Origin: Cylindrobasidium torrendii FP15055 ss-10
Lineage: Eukaryota > Basidiomycota > Agaricomycetes > Agaricales > Physalacriaceae
Direction of reading: 5' to 3'
Length of the DNA stretch: 64,000 nt
Assembly (NCBI GenBank): GCA_000934385.1
Contig: KN880470.1
Coordinates: forward strand, 62,001-126,000
The position numbers were made by a program, and so were the translations under genes. Positions within the stretch are counted from its first letter, which is position 1. Each line of letters opens with the position of its first letter. Below are positions 6,026 through 58,398 of this stretch, one piece after another. A model generated the notes under the pieces. The model saw only the letters and a program-made list of their open reading frames with translations, was not told the origin of the DNA and did no database searches.

Positions 6026-6256
6026 GGTGGGTGTTGTAGGAATGGGATATGGGTAATGGGGTTTGTTTTCTAAAAGGCCGTTCTGGGCAACTTATATAGC
6101 CCTTGACTGGCCTCGTCACAACCAGCGGCCGTTCATGGAGAGAGCCACAGCCGTCAGACCCGTTCTGGCGGAGGGATGCTCAAATGACGCAGTGGATTTC
6201 CGGTTCGCAGCTTTCATGTCCACCCTTAATCATCCGTAGATCTATTGCGTCCTGCG

Positions 6257-7611: not shown

Positions 7612-9858
7612 GGTTGAGGATGGACAAGATGAAACCCTAACCTTAGCGATCAGGCTAAGTCGTCTCTTCGAATCACTGTCAGCTTCGAATTCGAGTTGGA
7701 GAGCGATTTCGATGTCTGCGCCTTCCAAAGCCTTCCACAAAGCCACTCCAAACTGGAAAATCGGGAACAGTCGCTCATTTTTTTCATGCTACGAGTCAAT
7801 GTGAGATCCTCTGACAGGATGGACGCCGTTCGCATTTGGACGTCGACAGCAGGCCTTGATATATTGATAGGCTCACCGAGCCAAGTTGATTCTGTACCAA
7901 GACTACTATATATGCATGCATGTATCGATGTCAACTTGGATGCTATCCCTTTGCATGAGCACCTAAGTACTCAGCACTTTGTCAGGGTATTGGAACATGA
8001 GTACAACTATGCCAGTGGCTTTCATTGTTGACAAGACTGCGGTACGTTGAGGCGATAGTTGTGACAGCAAGATGCAGATTGATGTACCGAGCACGCACCC
8101 ATATATCGACTACATATGACATGTTAGTCAAGCTTCAAGCGTTATGTGCTAGCCAAAAGTGGCGAACAATGGCGATTTATAAAGCCACCATTTTTGAGAG
8201 TGTGCAGTGACTATGTACTGGGGGAACGGTGTGACTGTATGGGCCGCTACAATACATTTGGGTTGAACTTAAGATAGCATAGTGTCTGTGCTGACGCCTC
8301 TGTGTCGGAACTTGATTTCGATTATAGTAGTCCGCTGAATTGAGGCCAAATTGAGGCGAAGGATGGCCATGTCAATGCAGCGTCAAAAGATTGTTCCACT
8401 ACAGTGTATCTCTAGTTGCACCTTTGTCAGTAGACAGTTTCGTTTTACGGTAATGAGAAACGCTCCATTGCTCACGGCTCTAAGCTCATACCGTTCCCCG
8501 AGTGCTTGAACGCTCATGCTCTCATGACGCACTCCGACGGTAAGGCATCGCAGTTCGCCACTTCTACCATGCTCTGCCCATATACCACCGGTATGTCTCG
8601 ATGACCTTGCGAATAGAAACGATCCAATAATATTCTGACAGATCCGAATTGGCGAGCCTGGGGCCTTCAATCCGGGGATGCAGCGCTACTTACCACGCGC
8701 TAGCTTTCCATTCTCAATCCCACCACACTGAGGGTCGCCCGAAGAGTCGAACAAAGAAATCTCTCACAGAGAGGACATCTCAATGCGTTCAGGTACTCAG
8801 ACTCTCGTGTGCGTGCAATGCCATAGCCAGTGGCACTGCGTGGGAGATAGCCCAAAATGGAGAACAATGAAAGTTGCGAGCCTGCTGTTTTGCCTCGTGA
8901 TATTAGGGCGGGGAATCACTTGTCTTCTCGGTATGTGGTGTATGATATGAGCTACTGGAGGGGCAGAGAAAGGCAGCTTTACCCATTGAGAGTGGCAACA
9001 CCTGGGAGATATTAGACAGCATCAGGTAGCCGGCAGAAATTGGGCTATGACATACAACAATCACGATGGCCACATAGATGAACGAGACATGTACGGGGTG
9101 CATACATACCATAGATGAGCGCGCGGGGAAGCTTATTGTCGTCCGTCATCGATATGGGGAGATTTCGGTGAACAAGGACGATTTGTGGCGTTGCAATGTG
9201 TGTCTACCTTACCGACTCGGGAGATACCAGCATGCGTGACCGAGTATGCATCCTGTGTACCACCGCACCATTCCGTAGAAGTTGCGGGTGCTTGAAGAGG
9301 CAAGTGGGATGTTAGGAATGGTGACGGTCAGTTTCTGCTGAGAGCGTGCAAAGACTCGTTGAAGTCGTCGAGCACTGACGCTTGAACGCCGAGTGCGTGT
9401 ATAGATTAACACTTGTATTCCGACCGCTTCAATCAGAGCTTAGCTGTAAAAAGATGAAAGCAGTGTACTCACCAAAGAGAAACAAGCGCCGCATGGAGGA
9501 CTATCCCAAATGCGGCAAATCGGGATATTTTCCATGTCCGAAATTTGAAACGTGGTTATATAGGGAGCCGGAAAGCCCCTGGTTGACGTTTCCCATTCCT
9601 CCTTCCCTCATCGACAGCAGGTTGCGGTGTGCCGGGGAGTCGACGCGACCTAGGATTCGTTTTAGTTCTTTTGACGTCGCCATTTCCTCGTTTGCTCATC
9701 GTTTTCGCTATCAACTGGTGTTCGCGCAGTACACGTCGCTTCCGCCATTTTTTTCGATTTTTTACGCACGACCCACACTATCGGCATCAACAGATCGGCC
9801 ACCGGTCGTCTTCTGACAAACAACCACCATCATCCAGTCGAGTTCCTCACTGGAGGAT
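7612..9858. other. Long stretch without a confident gene
   Basis: These 2.2 kb hold only short frames. On the minus strand, a TATA-like box near 9555 is followed by an ATG near 9493 and by several GT-AG-like signals with short open segments down to about 8383. An unrecognised multi-exon gene on this strand is therefore possible, but I could not assemble a convincing product. The right-hand part, about 9550-9858, must hold the promoter and leader of the RNA-binding protein gene on the plus strand. No repeat or RNA gene was seen. Confidence 0.3.
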
Positions 9859-49092: not shown

Positions 49093-50510
49093 TCATGTTG
49101 TGTCCATAGTTAACATGGTCTCTTCGCCCTCCATCTTGAACCCTTTCAAGTCAGCTTGATCCATGGCAGCCAGTAGTCCGTCGACATCTGGTGACACGAC
49201 GAACCGCTTGTTCACTTCTCCTAGAACCGTTAGAGACTTGGTGTTGGTGTCCAGCGCCACGGCTTGTTGGAGGAATGCGGGTTGTGTTGCAGAAGAGACG
49301 TCCAGCAAAATACCATTGGCCATACGAATCTTCACGATCCCACTTTTGTATACTTCGAGGGTGCCTATGGTGCCGTCGGGACCTGCTGGTGGAGCCGGAG
49401 GAGCATCTGTGGTGGAGGCAGGTTCACCTGGAACGTTGAAAGAGACCTTTTTAGGTAAAGCATCGGCTCCCGGTGTTGGTTCGGGCACTGGTGCAGGCGG
49501 AGGGACAGTCAAGACGCTGAGTGGAGAGGTGAAAGTGGGGAATGGAGAAGGGAATTGGAAGAAATATAAGCGGTCTTGCCGTAGATCCTATCAACCTTGT
49601 TAGAGGTACGGTAAGAAGAAATCGTCAAGCAGTCACTTACGACTCCCTCGTCGTCCTTGGTATTAGTGAAATCTTCAATAATGTTTTCCAACTCCTCTTC
49701 ATCTTCACTTTCACTAAGGTCCAGAGCCTGAGAGCGGTCGATTCCCTCTACAGTGGATGTCAGCCAGTATTCATGGACGCATCAGTGAACGCACCCTCGT
49801 CGGACTCCTCCTTCTTCGCTTTCTTTTTCTCTCGTTCTCTCCGCAGGGCTTCCGGTGCCATCCAATCCATCTCGCGAACATTTTCCAAATCAATGATCTC
49901 GACACCGTCGTCCGGTTCAGAGTAGACCTCATTGTCGTCGTCGTCTTTGACACGGCCTTTCCCCTTGATATCCTGCTCAACTTTGATGCGAGGTGCACGC
50001 GAATTTGAGAGGTTCGACGACCCAAATGAACCAGAGGATGGGGCGGAAAAGTTGGAGCGAGGAACAATGCGTCCAGAAGTGCCAGATGTTCCCAGCGCAG
50101 GCCCCATAGCGAAGGGACCAGACGCTGTCATCTCGGGAGCTGGTCGTGGTCCTGCGCCTCGTCCTCGTCCTGCTCCGTCTCCTCTCCCTCGTCCACGTCC
50201 GCGACCACGACCACGGGCATCTGTTGTTGTTGGAATAACGTCTGCTGTTGGTTCGGCCTTGACCTCACTGCTTCTTCTTTAGCGTTTGAACATGTATGGC
50301 GAGGTTGACGCACTCTTTTTTGCGTCGTGGAGGGAGTGTTGGGGCAAACTTGAGCTTGGGCCCTGCGCTTCCGCCGCGCGGTGAAGGGCGTACAAAGTTT
50401 CCCATAGCCTTGGGCTTGCCAGGAGTACTACTTTCTGATAGTGACCTTGTGAGAAACAAGAAAGCGCGACAGGCTGAACGCGTACCTCCGCCATTGTTGG
50501 GTGCGGACAT
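49093..50510 (-). CDS. RPC53: RNA polymerase III subunit Rpc53 (RPC4)
   Basis: The start at 50510 opens MSAPNNGGG, then SSTPGKPKAMGNFVRPSP, a low-complexity basic head with RGRG repeats. The middle has PRIKVEQDIKGKGRVKDDDD and ENVREMDWMAPEALRRERE. The C-terminus holds the RPC4 domain: DRLYFFQFPSPFP, then GTIGTLEVYKSGIVKIRMAN and GILLDVSSATQPAFLQQAV, ending in FVVSPDVDGLLAAMDQADL. With Rpc37 this subunit forms the TFIIF-like subcomplex that acts in termination and reinitiation. Introns near 50486-50430, 50313-50278 and 49665-49597 join cleanly. The 5' end lies against the left inverted repeat of the element at 50.6 kb, so its promoter must have been changed or moved by the insertion. Confidence 0.92.
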
Positions 50511-50611
50511 GATAGTGATGGCGGAAAGGAAATGAAATCAAGCCGATCGCTAGTCTCGAGCCAGTACGCCCGACTCGTCGACGATAACAAGTGATGTGCC
50601 TTGCCGGGCGT

Positions 50612-50709
50612 CTGGAAGGATTCGGAGCCTATAAGGGGGGGCACCAAATTGATGATCCAATCAGCCATCACTTACCCGGGTTTTCGCACTTCAACTTGAG
50701 AAACGAAAG
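50612..50709 (+). repeat. Left terminal inverted repeat
   Basis: It pairs without gaps with the reverse complement of 57073-57170 at 91 of 98 positions by hand count. The longest shared run, 36 bases, ends at 50709. The outer end starts CTGGAAGGATTCGG. Confidence 0.9.
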
Positions 50710-51010
50710 GCAAAATCTCAAATGCACGGTGCGGTTTAAATATCATTGCCAATAGGTTGTTATTAGTGACTATACAACCGCTTTTGAAAATTAAATCCTT
50801 AAGGCTCGATTTCGAGCACGTACAACCATATTAGTGCATCGGATTCGGTGGCCTGTCAAGTCATTTACAAAGTTGTCAACGAGCGATACAAGGTCAAATG
50901 TAATGTAGAACATCGGGAGTAATATACATTATGTATACGGCGAGTCTTTCAGGCAAGTCTCTTCAGTCTGACTCCTAAGGTTTGAGTCCGTGTCTATCTG
51001 CCAAACCATC

Positions 51011-54000
51011 ATGAGCGACCAACCCAAACGACCCCGTAGTGCCGAACCAGAGTCGCCACGACATGCGCGAAAGCGATTTGCACTTTACGAGTCTGAAGAC
51101 GACAGCGAGGGTGTTGGGCCGCCATCCTCGCCGACCGACCATGTTGCCCAGCGGCGCCGTCTGCCACCTCGTCATGTTAGCTCTCCAGGAGACCCTATAT
51201 CAGCATCGGCGCCTTCCCAGAGGCAACCAACATTGAACGCAATGGTACCTTCGGTTTCGACCTCTCTCAATATTCCACCATATCGCCCGCGAAAGACTTG
51301 GACACCTTCGAGGCGTGATGCTGCACGCGAGGCCGAGCGCCTGACCGAACTGGAGATGACACCGAGCACAGTCGCTGTGCTTGAGGATGCTAGACGCACT
51401 GCAAAAGTGAAAAGCGTCGCTTTTGTGGAAGATGAGAAGAGCAAGCGCGAGCGCCAAAATGCGGCAGCTGGACAGGCTCAGCAGCGGGCAAGGGAGATTG
51501 AATTAACGCTGGCAAGGGAAAAGGCCAGAGATGATGCGAAGGTCGAAAAGGAGCAGATTCGGCAAGCCGGGCGTGCAAGGATGCTTGAGGGGATTGAGAA
51601 AAGAGAGGGAAAGCAGGCCAGGCATAAGGAGCCCGAGGATCCAGCCGCAAAACGAGCGAGTGCGAGGGCAGTGTGGAAGGATGCAAGGGAGAGAGGCTTC
51701 GGAAATCCTGCAGAGTTCATTAGACACCTTGTTAGCGGGGGCGGAGAGGATTCCACGCACGATGGAAGCTTGTCCCAGTTCTATGCCCATGCCAGCGACC
51801 TGGCCAGCGTGCTCCACGATGCCAAACCGGGCTGCCTCGATGATTTTGTCGCCAAACGCCACGCTGATATTCTCCGTATCGAAGCAAGCCAGTTGAAAGC
51901 TCATTTCTCCCGTAATCCACAGGTTTCGCTGTCCAAGCTTCTGCAGGATTTTTCACTTGACAATCTGGCTAAGGAGTTGCCGGTCGTTGCACCTACACTG
52001 TGGGAGCTCCTGCGGATTGTTGGAGAGCCTGTGCGGCCAGAAATTGGGGCGACAAAGCAGAGTACGCGACGTGACCCGGACATGGTGAGTTGAGGTCAAG
52101 CAGCACTGTTGATCGCACATTTACCCCGCTTACCCCGCTTACCCCGCACTTAGATTCGAACCACCATATTCGCAATGCTAGCCATTTCTCTTTCCCAGCG
52201 CGCAAACACTTTCCAGACCGTGATTGGCCTCTTTCTCATCGGTTCTGGGGTGGCCAAAAAGACTGTGGAAGTATTATCCCATGCCGGCTTTTGTGCATCG
52301 TATTCCACCATCCTGGAACATATTGGTACGCTCTCAAACGAAGCCACACAAGTCTATCGCAAAGTAATGCTGGAGTGCATGTGCTCTATTGTTTGGGATA
52401 ACCTGAACATTGCCTTTCGAGTGGAAGCCCAACGTATGGACTCCCAAAACCATTTTGATAATGGAACAACCGCCACATTAATCGCTCTTCGAGATCCAGC
52501 CACCGGCGCTCGTGTACCCCACGGAACTCTACCTCTCGATATGAAGCCCCCACGCACATCAAGCAAGTCCATTGAGTCGTGGACTGTCGAGCAGACCGCT
52601 CTCACGCACTCCGATGCAATAATTCTTGAGCAGTGTTCGCTGTGGCAGCTGCGTCAACTAGCCATCGATGTCATTCCTTCATTGTCACATCTCAAGTCTT
52701 CCCTCGAGCCATGCCCCACTGTTGAGCAGATAAAGGTGCACAAGACGGAGCAGTATCCTCTCCCAGCCTTACACGAAGACGAGTCAAGCATCGACGGGAC
52801 TTTGAGCGTATACAAGGCTCTCTTCAAGGCTGTTGGTGTCGACTCCGGTGAGAAGGTACAGTCTCACGGGCTCTTCTTCTTGGATGGCGACCAGCTTACT
52901 GAGTCGCTGATTAACAAGGTGAATGACTTGTTCATTGTGCCATTCACGTCTCTCATAATCTCATCTACAGCTCGAGTCTGCCCGCCGAAATGGAAATGAC
53001 GAAATCGAGTCCTTCCTGTCAGTCATCCGGCGGTTTGGGGGATTTCACGCAAAGATGGCAGGATGTCGGGCAGTGGTGAACGAGCACTGGAATAAGCACG
53101 GCGCCACTTCGGGTCTCTGGTTCGAGAACAATCAGACGCTCCAGCGCAAGAACATGGTTGCTGGATGGGAGAAGCAGAAAGCTACTCGCTGGAAAGTTTC
53201 TCACGAGCTCATAGAGCTCTCGATACGCGGGCATATTTTGGATGCTCTCCGTATCTCTTGTGGCCATGAAGACATCGACACATGGGCATTATTTGCTTCC
53301 AAGGACGACTTCAATACCGTTACCCGTGCGGCTTATGACAACCTCTTTACAACGATGGCATATGAGGAGGCAACAGACCACATCAAGCGCGATACAACCT
53401 TTGAGAACTCTATTCTCCAGAATCGAGATATGCTGTGGTATGTTGTCCTGGTGAATTCAGTTCGCGCGGGTGACATTGGTCGCGTCATTCTTGTCTATCG
53501 GGTCTGGATGGTCATGATGCGGACACCCAAAACCATGCCCAAATATGCCGATGCGTTTTTCAAGACGTTTGCGCGACTTGACTTATTTCCGGCCACTCTT
53601 CGGTGCGTTACCACTGCCGCAAAGCTCAAACAATGTCCTAACATTTGGATGCTAGTACCTTCTTTCTGCACAACTGGCTTGTCAACATAACGGGTCTCCC
53701 TAATCGCTTCAAAGAGATTGATTTACTTCAAGAGCATCTCAACTTTTGGGCAAAGGTACGTGCATGTCTTCAAGCAGTGTCATGTAGGTACTTACATCTT
53801 CAATCCTATGAAGATCATTTACAACGCAAAAGGCGTCAACCGGACTTGGGAATGGCTTGCCAAGGTAACAGTCTGCATCTATGCTCTTCGTGATGCCATG
53901 CGAACCGTCCAGAAAGCGTACAAGATACCGGAATACGGGCTTTTGCACACTGTTCCGGATATGGCAAGAGAGGTTGGCATGATCGCTGATGTCCTTCGCA

Positions 54001-54338
54001 CCAAGCGTGTCCAAGAATACGCTGAGTCCCGCCCCAATGAAGATGTGCGTCCAGTACGCGATCTATACGCAGAAGGCTCGAAAAATGCAAATACCCGGAA
54101 GGCACTCACCAAATTTACGGCCGAGCAGCGCAGAGCACGCGTTGATGGATTTCTTGCCCCGGGGTCGCAGCCTGCCGCAGTGGTGACAATAGTAGACATT
54201 GAAGATGATGCTATTGAAGAGCCATACAACATCGACCTCGAAGACCTGGAGATGGACCCGGATGAGGCTGCAGCATATGACAATCTCGATTTTGTGCGGG
54301 AGCGCGGCATGGATATGGTCGGGGACATGCTAGATTAG
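51011..54338 (+). CDS. DUF6589-family protein, candidate transposase
   Basis: Five exons (51011-52084, 52154-52918, 52971-53602, 53656-53755, 53814-54338) give 1,031 residues without a break. The first exon is disordered, basic and rich in R, E, K and A, with a helical region. The conserved part starts near residue 360: NTFQTVIGLFLIGSG, then YSTILEHIGTLSNEA, and IVWDNLNIAFRVEAQRM near residue 440 with DNGTTATLIAL. LDGDQLTESLINK is near residue 604. Later come HNWLVNITGLPNRFKEIDLL, LQEHLNFWAK and NAKGVNRTWEWLAK. This is the DUF6589 family of mushroom genomes. Aspartates in WDNLN and GDQLT recall acidic catalytic residues of RNase H-fold transposases. That reading is my inference. The gene is the only candidate recombinase of the element. 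Confidence 0.85.
52121..52147 (+). repeat. Three perfect 9-base repeats in intron 1
   Basis: The unit TTACCCCGC occurs three times in direct tandem just before the acceptor of the first intron (52085-52153) of the DUF6589 gene. Confidence 0.85.
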
Positions 54339-54352
54339 ATAGTCAATACAAG

Positions 54353-56903
54353 CTATGCCTCCGAGCTACTGTGACTACTGTATCCTGCATCCATCTCACT
54401 TTCTCCAAATAACTCAACAAGTTTGGCCTCAAGGAAGTGCTGTATAATGTAAGTATTCTTATAGATATCGGAGTCCGGCCTGTTGTACAAGCGCGCATTG
54501 TTGAAAATGAGATACCATGCATCACGGAATTGTGACACAGATGTGTAGCCCTTTGTGGGCCCAGCGTGAGCCATGGTGCGGATGTTGGATATCGATGTTG
54601 GGGTCTGTATTTTTTCATAATAGTCCGGGTATTTCTGGTTGCACATCAGCCATCAATTGACCTTGTAAATCAAGACGTACCCGAGATGAGGGTCGTCGCA
54701 TAAAGAGTCCACAAACCCGATTGCCGTCCTTGTCCTCGAGTGCCTCAATGGCGGCTATGCACTCGAGGAATAGAGGTTGAAGTCGCTTATGTGTGCTCTT
54801 TCGGTCCTTGACAACCATACTGCGAAGCTTGCGGTATGCGCGTTCCTGGCGTTGTTCTTCGCGAACAATGTCTTCCGGATCGGGAAATTGGGCAACAGCC
54901 TGCTTGACAACATTCACCACCTCACAACCATATTCGCCTTCCCGTCCTGCTGCCCAATACCATGGGATAACAGTTTCGAAAATACGAGGCTCGATAACGG
55001 ATCGAGCGCGACTTACAATAGCCCCAAGCACATCATCGTCGAGGATACTGCGAGCGGTGATGGTGCGCTGCCCGGGATAGTCTCTCCGGATAATCCCCAT
55101 TCGCCATGCTTTCAGAGCCGCTGTGACTGCCATTTTCTGCGCATCGGTAGGCTTGGGTGCGCGCTTGGGCTTGTACACATTTGGGATCTCAAAGATGACA
55201 TTTGGAACCGGGAATTGCGCTGGTTGACAGTTGTCGCAGCATCGGGCCCCATCTGCGACATCAATTCCCAGGCTCACTGTGACATGGTAAGCTTTGGGCG
55301 AAATTGGAATAGCATAGACAACACACATTTGTCCTTGTTCTCAAAGAAGACGTCCCACGGTGTCCGTCGACATTCGTTGGTCGCAATGAACCAAGAGAGT
55401 GCTGCAGAATCATGTTTTTGAATGGCCGAGAGCGCTTTGCGCTTCTTGAACTTCCCAGTCATGGAACTTGCTGACACAGTTGAAGCCCCTTGTAACGCAT
55501 CTTCCTCGTTGAGATCGATTGCTGCAGCAGCATCTTCGCGCTCCTGCCGCTGCTGCTCCCCGCGTGGCTCTAAACCGGCCTCGTCCTCCTCTTCTTCATC
55601 GCTCTCAAGTATAGTGTCAGCGCACACTTCGCTATTTTTGCTTGCAGCGGCATCCCGGAAGGCTGTTTGGTGGCGGATGAACGATGCCTTGGTAATGAAG
55701 AGGACCACTTCGCCAAAGTGTGAGAAGTTTCGAGTACAGCGACCGATTTTCTGGATAAGAGACAGAAAGGTCTCCGGCTCCTGCCATAAAATAACTCGCA
55801 GAACGTGTGGGAGGTCAATTCCCTAGCATGTGTTAGACGCAAACATAGGGAACTGACATTAGACGCACCATGCCAAGTGCATCGGTGGCAATGACTATGC
55901 GCAGGATTCCAGAGCGCAGGTCTCTCTCAATCTCCGCTTTCTCTTCATCAGAGAGATAGCGGTGATAGAATCGAATGGCTTTCGAAGATAGGTTGGGTGG
56001 TGCATGTGCACGAAGGAAATCTTGCATACGCTCTGCTATTGTGCGTGAATTGACGTAGATGATCGTCTGAGGGAGGCTCTCGGGTGATGTGGCAGGGAAT
56101 AACGAAACTAAGTCCGCAAAGCTGTCCTGGGCATGCTGGAGAGTACGAACTGAGAGCGCGACATTGGGCTTGCGGTTAGATACAGAAATGACTCGAAAGT
56201 CGTCGCCTAGGTGTAGCTTCAGGCGCACATCGTCCATGACATCCTTTGGGAGCGTGGCGGAGACGATGAGCTGTGGTACCGTATTTGGTAGTCGTCGAAT
56301 GAGTTCAATAAGCCGGCCATATGTTGGCCGGAAATCTGGTCCCCATTCCGAGATACAGTGGGCCTCATCGACCGAGAATTGAATGAGATTATCGAGGAAA
56401 GGCTTCGATTGAAGCACAATATTTTTGAAGTCGGAATTGTCCTGCATTTCGGGGCCAAGCAAGACAACACGGTAGTCGCCATTTGCGACGCGCTAATAGA
56501 ATACTGAGCGCTGTTGTAGGCCAAAAGAAAAATCACGCACCTTGAATTCCCCAACAAGATCTTTGATCTGCGACGTCAATGCTACAGCCCGAATCCCGCG
56601 TTCGTTGAGGGCTTTGGCTTGTGCGGTCATGAGAGCAACAAGCGGGCTTATAACAATCACAGCGGCCTTTGACTGAGTGCCCAAGCGTTTTGCAGATATT
56701 ATGTGATAGTATAGGGCGAACCATAGAGCAAGGGTTTTGCCGCCGCCGGTGGGAACATCGAGAATAGTGTGGCGGCCTCGAAGTATGTGAATACCAGCTT
56801 CTTCTTGGAACGGGCGGATTTCTGGGATGCCAAAGTCGCTGCACAATTTATCCTTGGTATCTTTAAGGATTTCCTCGTCGATGCGGTCGAGTATAGGAGC
56901 CAT
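54353..56903 (-). CDS. RecQ-type DNA helicase with C-terminal bromodomain
   Basis: Five exons (56903-56541, 56492-55869, 55822-55327, 55252-54681, 54634-54353) give 778 residues. Motif 0 and Walker A read FGIPEIRPFQEEAG and DVPTGGGKTLALW. The Walker B box is VDEAHCISEWGPDFRPTYG, motif III is VSATLP and motif VI is LIQKIGRCTRNF after DALGMGIDLPHV. A RecQ zinc site, ECRRTPWDVFF and CCDNC, closes the helicase part. The last about 130 residues carry a bromodomain of Snf2/Sth1 type: CIAAIEALEDKDGNRVCGLF, then KYPDYYEKIQTPTSISNIR and FNNARLYNRPDSDIY, with the asparagine that contacts acetyl-lysine. It should unwind DNA and bind acetylated histones. I know no RecQ protein with this fusion. All ATPase motifs look intact. 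Confidence 0.85.
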
Positions 56904-57072
56904 GACGGATGATAGAGGGCAAAAAATAGTTAAAGGGGAGTCTCAAATTCCATGCGTAATAGTCCGTTTTACTTCCGGAGAGCGATCACATAAATCAAGA
57001 TAAATGTATAGCAAAGAGTACATCGCAAAAAAAATACATGTTAGTGCGCAAGTTGGCAAAGTGCATTTTGCG

Positions 57073-57170
57073 CTTTCGTTTCTCAAGTTGAAGTGCGAAA
57101 ACCCGGGTGAGTGATGGCTGATAGCATCATCAATTTCCTACCCCCCCTTATAGGCCCCGAATCCTTCCAG
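57073..57170 (-). repeat. Right terminal inverted repeat
   Basis: This is the reverse complement partner of 50612-50709, with 91 of 98 positions identical. The seven mismatches are scattered. Weaker similarity continues outward to about 57240. Confidence 0.9.
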
Positions 57171-57302
57171 TCGCTTCGCCGTAAGGCCTGATCGACTATC
57201 ATCAGGCGGCGAAGTGGCTGGTGTCGAGTCTAGCCGATCGCAAAGATCTTGTAGACATCACATGCTGTTATCCTTGCCAATTTTCTCCTTCTCACTTCCG
57301 CC

Positions 57303-58398
57303 ATGGCCGCCGCCCCAGTCAAGCACTTCCGCGTCTCATACAATGACATCCACAACTTGATTCGCAAGGCGACGCCAACTATCGCAAAGGAGTTCAACCC
57401 GGACTTGCTGGTCGCAATTGGCATGTGCTAGCTATTCACTCCCAATGAATGACAGTACTGACTTGAGTACAGGCGGAGGGTGTGTGATCCCAGGCTGTTG
57501 TGCTCGTTAATCCTGCTTAGCCTGTCCTAGAGGATTCTTTCCCGCCCGTGTCATGGTCAGTGAACTCATCGACATCGTCGACCAATCCCAGGCATCGGCT
57601 TATCACCTCAACCACAGCGCACCTTCCTTCGCGAGCTGACCGACAACAAGTCGCTCACAATCCAGGCCATTGGATTATCGCTGTACGAGCCGGCGCCGGG
57701 CATGTCAGAGGAGCAGATTGGCAACGAAGTTGTGCGCACACAATGGTTGTAAGTCCATTTGTCCTTCAAGAATGGCTTTCGGATGTTCACACGGAACAGA
57801 TCCGATGCCGGCAAGAAGCTGGTCGGCAAGCGAGTGCTCGTTGTGGTTAGTACCGACCTCCGTCCTTTGTGCCTCTTCACCGACGCGGTCCCCAGGACGA
57901 GGTGGATGACACGCGCAAGACGCTCAGGTGCCCATCTTCGTGCTCGAACTCGCCAACATGTATTGAGATGTTCACCCAGCTATGCACTGAGCGAATTGCA
58001 AAAAGACATCGACGCCGAATTGGCGACGCGCTCACCCGAAGAGGCTGCAAAGCTCCGCGCAGAGACCAAGCTGAGCATCTTTGTTGTGCACAACAAGGAC
58101 AAGCCCAAACTTGCCCAGCTGCCAGAGGGAACGCCGTGAGTGCCATCGACAATCAACTAGCCTTGCATACTGATGTACGCAGATACTGGGCTGGTGAAAC
58201 CCTCGGCGATTTGTGGTGAGTACCTCCCCGTCAACATCGAGAGTACCGTATAGCTGACACCGAGATAAGGCTTGACTATCCCTGGGAACAGACGTATGTG
58301 TTTGGATGCGGGTATGTTGCCCTTCTAACATTTTTTACAGGGATATCGAGGAGCATGACAAGGCGGCGGCAGCGGACAAGAAAGCTCTGAAGCAATAG
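57303..58398 (+). CDS. XPT1: Xanthine/hypoxanthine phosphoribosyltransferase with a 7-base microexon
   Basis: The ATG at 57303 opens MAAAPVKHFRVSYNDIHNLI, then ATPTIAKEFNPDLLVAIG. To keep the conserved GGGGFFPARVM, the 7 bases at 57473-57479 must form their own exon. The intron before them (57421-57472) starts GCATGT and the one after them (57480-57530) is GT-AG. Exons then give RTFLRELTDNKSLTIQAIGL, KRVLVVDEVDDTRKTLSYAL as the PRPP-binding loop, and KLSIFVVHNKDKPK. The end is DIEEHDKAAAADKKALKQ. The enzyme salvages xanthine and guanine- or hypoxanthine-type bases into nucleotides in the cytosol. At least seven introns are present. The promoter side touches the right repeat of the element. 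Confidence 0.9.

Follow-up and report, generated by a model that had tools for sequence, protein, structure and literature searches.

We analysed a 64,000-bp window of the Cylindrobasidium torrendii FP15055 ss-10 genome (C40:62001-126000, where C denotes a contig; assembly of 29.3 Mb in 494 contigs), in which a block lying between two divergent host genes holds a gene for a DUF6589 protein and a gene for a RecQ-like helicase with a C-terminal bromodomain. An earlier note, made from the window alone, had described two intact, convergent genes enclosed by terminal inverted repeats and proposed that they form a DNA transposon. Both genes are indeed intact and convergent, with five-exon models encoding 1031 and 786 aa and stop codons 14 bp apart, and the identities given to them were upheld by Pfam: the DUF6589 domain was matched in three open-frame pieces (best E 9.8e-43), while the helicase pieces matched DEAD, Helicase_C (weak in each piece) and Bromodomain (1.4e-13). 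In public data the DUF6589 gene is modelled as P0001, which has 841 aa and a later start than the 1031-aa frame and which matched PF20231 (Pfam DUF6589) at 344.9 bits against a curated cut-off of 27. For the helicase relatives P0121 and P0122, RecQ-family models were the best matches, with scores under their curated cut-offs. The features of the locus are as follows, TSD standing for target-site duplication.

50551-57232, + strand: whole proposed DUF6589-RecQ transposon, 6682 bp, set by the end of homology to a copy on C34, with a TSD on both sides
50542-50550, + strand: left TSD, GCCGATCGC, exact 9-bp direct repeat
50551-50611, + strand: left outer end, beginning TAGTCTCGAGCCAG, common to the miniature copies, found at 15 genome places including the window and resembling the end of a C337 element
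50612-50709, + strand: left subterminal inverted repeat (the terminal repeat of the earlier note), complementary to 57073-57170 at 91/98 positions
51011-52084, 52154-52918, 52971-53602, 53656-53755 and 53814-54338, + strand: DUF6589 gene, 1031 aa, 5 exons, GT-AG gene model, PF20231
56903-56541, 56492-55869, 55822-55327, 55276-54681 and 54634-54353, − strand: RecQ-like helicase gene with C-terminal bromodomain, 786 aa, 5 exons, gene model with DEAD, Helicase_C and Bromodomain
57073-57170, − strand: right subterminal inverted repeat, 91/98 match to the left one
57171-57232, + strand: right outer end with subterminal hairpin CGCTTCGCC...GGCGAAG and end TCGAGTCTA; similar hairpin in the C337 family
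57233-57241, + strand: right TSD, GCCGATCGC, exact 9-bp direct repeat
49093-50510, − strand: host gene RPC4/RPC53, outside the element (PF05132, E 9.9e-27; the low end is the end of the open frame)
ATG at 57303: right neighbour gene, its XPT1 label taken from the earlier note alone

The 98-bp inverted repeats match at 91 positions, as had been reported, and a repeat finder stretches them to 102 nt (92% match), the runner-up pairs in the 9-kb region being 21-24 nt long with 71-81% match. They are not the termini of the element as had been supposed. The copy on C34 aligns with window positions 57234-56535 and 51405-50551, continuing 61-62 bp outside the 98-bp repeats before homology ends, and the exact 9-bp direct repeat GCCGATCGC lies on both borders of the window element, starting where the C34 homology stops. 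The C34 copy has GCTCCGCTG at both of its own borders, again an exact 9-bp TSD. Because homology stops and a 9-bp TSD is present at these borders, we place the element at 50551-57232 with the 98-bp repeats in subterminal position, which makes it 123 bp longer than the 6559 bp between those repeats. Its ends are of the form TAG..CTA, with the end motif written TAGWCTCGA (also as TAGNCTCG). The insertion site is the ~100-bp spacer between the start codons of RPC53 (ATG at 50508-50510, start codon checked) and the right-hand gene. An Rfam scan of 50000-58000 returned 0 families. We also considered C34 as the other allele of the window locus, with ~60-bp shared flanks, and rejected this; homology ends at the element borders and the remainder of C34:1-19999 has no match to the 64-kb window.

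Further copies with the same ends, which the earlier note had proposed looking for, were found elsewhere in the assembly as a 1.5-kb deletion derivative, a copy split over two contigs and miniatures of 79-111 bp. A genome search with the left 98-bp repeat hit five places on three contigs, two of them being those of the window, while the outer ends occur at 15 (left, window included) and 10 (right) places and a miniature used as query gave 21. Nine miniatures have both ends and an exact 9-bp TSD, and overall such a TSD borders 14 of the 16 copies having both halves, with sequences that vary between copies; the probability that nine bases agree exactly at any one place is 1 in 262,144. In the split copy, C60 is truncated by the contig end and has the left TSD ATCTACAAC, and the same ATCTACAAC directly follows a right element end at the end of C93, for which reason the two contigs very probably meet at this copy. 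The C60 copy itself contains a different element, ~290 bp long and with inverted arms of 75 nt (73%) (L007:7664-7953; C93 = L069), and the meeting point very probably lies inside this nested element. On C109, C137 and C163, 43-53 bp of left end run directly into a second, exact copy of the TSD, and on C3, 57 bp run into a second copy matching at 8/9. All four TSD-bearing solo ends seen (C109, C137, C163 and C3 = L036, L037, L042 and L040) are left ends, and the clean junctions at the missing right ends would fit one-sided border cleavage followed by resection and rejoining.

A second family was found on C337, where a helicase gene (−) and a DUF6589 gene (+) lie head to head. A scan that looked for inverted ends bordered by direct repeats of 9-10 bp, run without the window motif, gave as its top result C337 9832-16700, which encloses both genes and has an exact TSD, CTTTCCTAT, and ends TAGACTCGCTACC / TAGGCTCGTGACC. 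This border pair alone was equalled in 3/300 shuffles, and it carries weight because its ends, like those of the window family, have a CACGATA motif on the left and a subterminal hairpin on the right (CGCTTCGCC...GGCGAAGCGG), a resemblance that the scan did not use. The first 128 bp of the C337 element recur at 100% at C339 (near the contig end) and at C59, a 1.3-kb deleted copy with the TSD TGTTCGCAT whose left end is 98% identical to C337 over 269 bp and right end 87% over 238 bp; because of these two copies the C337 element is not a fixed single locus. Next to the element lie two long open frames that resemble each other (L021 and L023, C337:721-2727 and 7849-9759; 72% at the DNA level over 1229 columns); the element starts ~70 bp past the stop of the second.

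Genome searching gave five DUF6589 loci (C40, C337, C17, C136 and C266, the last at a contig start), and a helicase gene adjoins four of them, convergently on C40 and C136 and divergently on C337 and C17. Searching the helicase pieces of C337, C136 and C17 turned up no bromodomain. In the stretches examined of C17, C136, C266 and C147 we saw single end-like motifs and no paired TSD, about one end-like 8-mer per locus being our own estimate of what chance provides. The C147 locus (L024:4546-6207) is a RecQ relative 46% identical to that of the window, with an end-like TAGACTCGATCC at 6207 and neither partner end nor DUF6589 in the stretch examined. Another RecQ relative (L025, C46:136330-136962) has an in-frame stop in its six-frame match, and is either a decayed copy or contains an unrecognised intron.

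The pairing extends to other fungi. A protein database search set apart a RecQ group of 53 fungal proteins (E <= 8.5e-70), the next match being at 4.5e-31, and the PF00439 bromodomain is present in 33 of them, as counted by eye from a precomputed column. DUF6589 gave 162 protein matches, the best 120 of which were used for linkage; sequence set A1 holds 69 of these 120, and set A2 holds 47 of 117 C17-type matches plus 4 of the first list. At least 28 of the 53 helicase relatives come from the same organism and a contig of identical size as a listed DUF6589 protein, compared with 5.1 expected if placement were random in a genome taken to be 50 Mb. On contigs <500 kb at least 16 of 35 helicases were linked against 0.44 expected, and no linked contig size was common to another organism. 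Protein distances of linked pairs correlate (26 pairs, r 0.875, 0/5000 permutations; 22 pairs within Mycena, r 0.856, 0/5000), a comparison covering 26 of the 28 pairs, two helicases with two DUF6589 partners being omitted, and to which shared species history contributes. Copies within M. crocata also agree, with helicase/DUF6589 distances of 0.50/0.51, 0.20/0.11 and 0.52/0.48. The Lentinula raphanica proteins P0014, P0025 and P0122 are on contigs of 6539, 6662 and 6778 bp, near the element size, which might be collapsed repeats.

We examined DUF6589 itself by predicted structure. Two separate models gave Hermes and the P element as best fold matches, with D, D, H and E aligned, and RAG1, Transib and Tn5 were also in the fold list. 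In the model of P0001, D250 lies in strand 245-255, D414 directly follows strand 409-413 and E660 lies in helix 657-676, with a predicted helical insertion and conserved histidine between the second D and the E; the catalytic residues were placed by sequence order rather than by residue-by-residue structural overlay. The predicted structure thus has the RNase H-like D/D/E character of DDE cut-and-paste transposases, and DUF6589 is very probably one of them; superfamilies missing from the fold lists are not thereby excluded. Other transposase families were absent from the reported Pfam matches of four DUF6589 proteins, hAT and MULE included, HMMER filters dropping most matches above ~0.1. A sequence-profile search of the PDB gave troponin I as its best match (E 0.048), which is meaningless. 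Among viral sequences, 33 pattern matches of viral contigs to the DUF6589 alignment included no relative, a viral structure library gave no match at E <=0.001, and PHROGs searched with two DUF6589 proteins gave 0 families.

Further copies, exact TSDs, the DDE-like predicted fold and the recurrent helicase pairing all support the earlier proposal of a mobile element moved by DUF6589, and we consider it highly probable that the block represents a cut-and-paste DNA transposon, complete and structurally intact, with DUF6589 very probably its transposase. Several observations weigh against this. In a TSD-and-repeat scan of the window alone the true pair ties with another pair at 5 mismatches, the degraded copies on C272 and C487, whose outermost tips are gone, have no TSD, and the solo ends on C77 and C353 have none either. 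Only two Foldseek matches reach E 0.001, the fold matches have low TM-scores (TMt 0.23-0.31) and 7-13% identity, and the fold tool warns that helical models can gain such Z through a common arrangement. Conservation also extends to D656 and other acidic columns, so the catalytic set was picked by order and position. Of the ten RecQ-like places in the genome, six lack an adjoining DUF6589; 25 of the 53 helicase relatives have no DUF6589 on a contig of the same size among the matches listed, and co-residence on a contig is not adjacency. For only 12 of the 26 linked pairs do the helicase and the DUF6589 protein agree in their nearest neighbour. As to present activity, the assembly holds only one full-length copy of the window family, and the C34 copy is 6-12% divergent from it.

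The element was compared with known systems, each taken as described in the cited papers. AcademH, the helicase-carrying lineage of the Academ superfamily (Kojima 2020), has 9- or 10-bp TSDs (PMC10045372) and has been reported, at low copy number, from Basidiomycota (PMC10799480). Like it, the window and C337 elements contain a helicase gene, and their exact 9-bp TSDs fall within its range; the accounts of AcademH consulted, those of citing papers, speak neither of a bromodomain on the helicase nor of TAGWCTCGA ends with subterminal hairpins, both of which the window element has. Set against this description rather than against AcademH sequences, the element works as AcademH transposons do and probably represents a branch of their lineage marked by the bromodomain, and the balance tips towards DUF6589 being an Academ-type transposase. 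Its description as an undescribed transposon is therefore doubtful for the kind as a whole, since a fungal helicase-carrying lineage with 9-10-bp TSDs was already known, while the bromodomain variant appears to be new; in all likelihood the element is a new, bromodomain-bearing variant of that known kind.

The closest solved folds are those of hAT (Hermes) and P transposases, which DUF6589 resembles in its D, D and E, helical insertion and histidine, with 7-11% identity and no hAT family among the reported Pfam matches. The P element has an 8-bp TSD. A C/DxxH motif lies between the second D and the E in hAT and P (PMC9587614), and hAT membership was rejected on its TSD, usually 8 bp and 5-7 bp in subgroups (PMC12730594), against 9 bp here. 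MULE/Mutator elements such as maize Mu share the 9-bp TSD and long inverted repeats, but differ in that here a helicase gene is present; no MULE family is among the reported Pfam matches, under the filter limit given above. KDZ and Plavaka are likewise Agaricomycete DNA transposons, some with accessory genes, but theirs encodes a TET/JBP dioxygenase; they were rejected because their TSDs are 7-8 and 2-3 bp respectively (PMC12730594), and no KDZ or Plavaka Pfam match was seen here. The alternative that survives best, a minority possibility of some substance, is that the element belongs to a separate, unnamed superfamily rather than to AcademH, with DUF6589 as its transposase family. The open-licence literature searched contained no mention of DUF6589, the four proteins matched no other transposase family and the best folds are hAT and P, all of which would suit this; none-the-less, a helicase, 9-10-bp TSDs and Basidiomycota are what AcademH is described by.

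Less likely by far is that two elements are superposed, an inner transposon of 6.56 kb, with the 98-bp repeats at its borders, having inserted into a ~105-bp miniature that owns the outer ends and the TSD. The outer ends do form 79-111-bp miniatures by themselves, and the inner repeats are longer and better matched than they are. Moreover, the miniature on C270 approximates an uninterrupted site, matching 53/54 bases of the C60 left outer end and running straight into the C60 right outer end, although loss of the interior between the short repeats CTCGCT/TCGCT at both junctions explains it equally well. The inner repeats occur at the same two junctions in C40 and C34, and at the right junction in C60. 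Direct repeats flanking the inner repeats are no longer than 1 bp; no inner block with its own TSD was seen at a site without the outer ends. In the distant C337 family the same kind of outer ends and a 9-bp TSD directly surround the gene pair, and the best repeat found between its two end regions was 12 bp. We favour a single element because the C337 ends and TSD enclose the same gene pair without a long inner repeat and because no separate TSD accompanies the inner repeats.

It is more improbable again that the ends are moved by another, unseen transposase, with DUF6589 and the helicase as passengers or as a pair of host genes. Most copies are gene-less miniatures and the window family has a single full copy, as this would have it, but the gene pair together with the ends is common to two families, the pair recurs with correlated distances in many genomes, and the predicted fold and residues of DUF6589 are those of a DDE transposase. 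Scarcely credible, finally, is membership of KolobokH, a fungi-only Kolobok lineage and like the window element a fungal DNA transposon with a RecQ helicase, which was rejected because Kolobok has TTAA 4-bp TSDs and RR..YY ends (PMC9587614), whereas here the TSDs are of 9 bp and varied and the ends are TAG..CTA. The KolobokH helicase is described as lying downstream of the transposase domain, the one here being on the opposite strand.

Taking the block as one DUF6589 transposon, DUF6589 would bind the hairpin-bearing TAGWCTCGA outer ends, and possibly the 98-bp subterminal repeats as well, cut by means of D250, D414 and E660 (P0001 numbering) and, by analogy with Hermes and the P element, join the element to a 9-bp staggered target. 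It could also act in trans on the ~100-bp miniatures. The RecQ-like helicase would probably open the hairpin-prone ends or aid repair of the excision gap, and the bromodomain may tether it to acetylated chromatin, a chromatin-targeting role that is a guess. A crude test for promoter-proximal insertion was not significant (3/17 sites <=200 bp upstream of an ORF start, compared with 184/1500 or 12% of random controls; P 0.35). Insertions inside an ORF of >=100 aa were fewer than in controls (4/17 and 881/1500; rough P 0.0035, with crude ORF calls), which selection against gene damage would explain equally well.

Judged from open-licence literature alone, the bromodomain variant and a function for DUF6589 appear to be new. 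As a bolder proposal, somewhat less probable than the separate superfamily above, DUF6589 would found its own superfamily or an unrecognised deep branch beside Academ, expanded across Agaricomycetes, as a DDE transposase typically accompanied by a RecQ-type helicase; the bromodomain fused in one branch would, by reading acetylated chromatin, steer or license transposition, and the hairpin ends would make the helicase part of the reaction. Helicase-carrying transposons were already known in fungi, and DUF6589, a family of unknown function, appears to gain a job. Many mushroom proteins annotated as hypothetical or of unknown function are very probably transposases, and recognising them as such cleans up gene counts and gives a Pfam family a testable activity. 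Furthermore, because one genome holds two families with the same partners, a bromodomain in one and none found in the other, C. torrendii offers a useful system for asking what a helicase and a fused chromatin-reading domain do for a cut-and-paste transposon.
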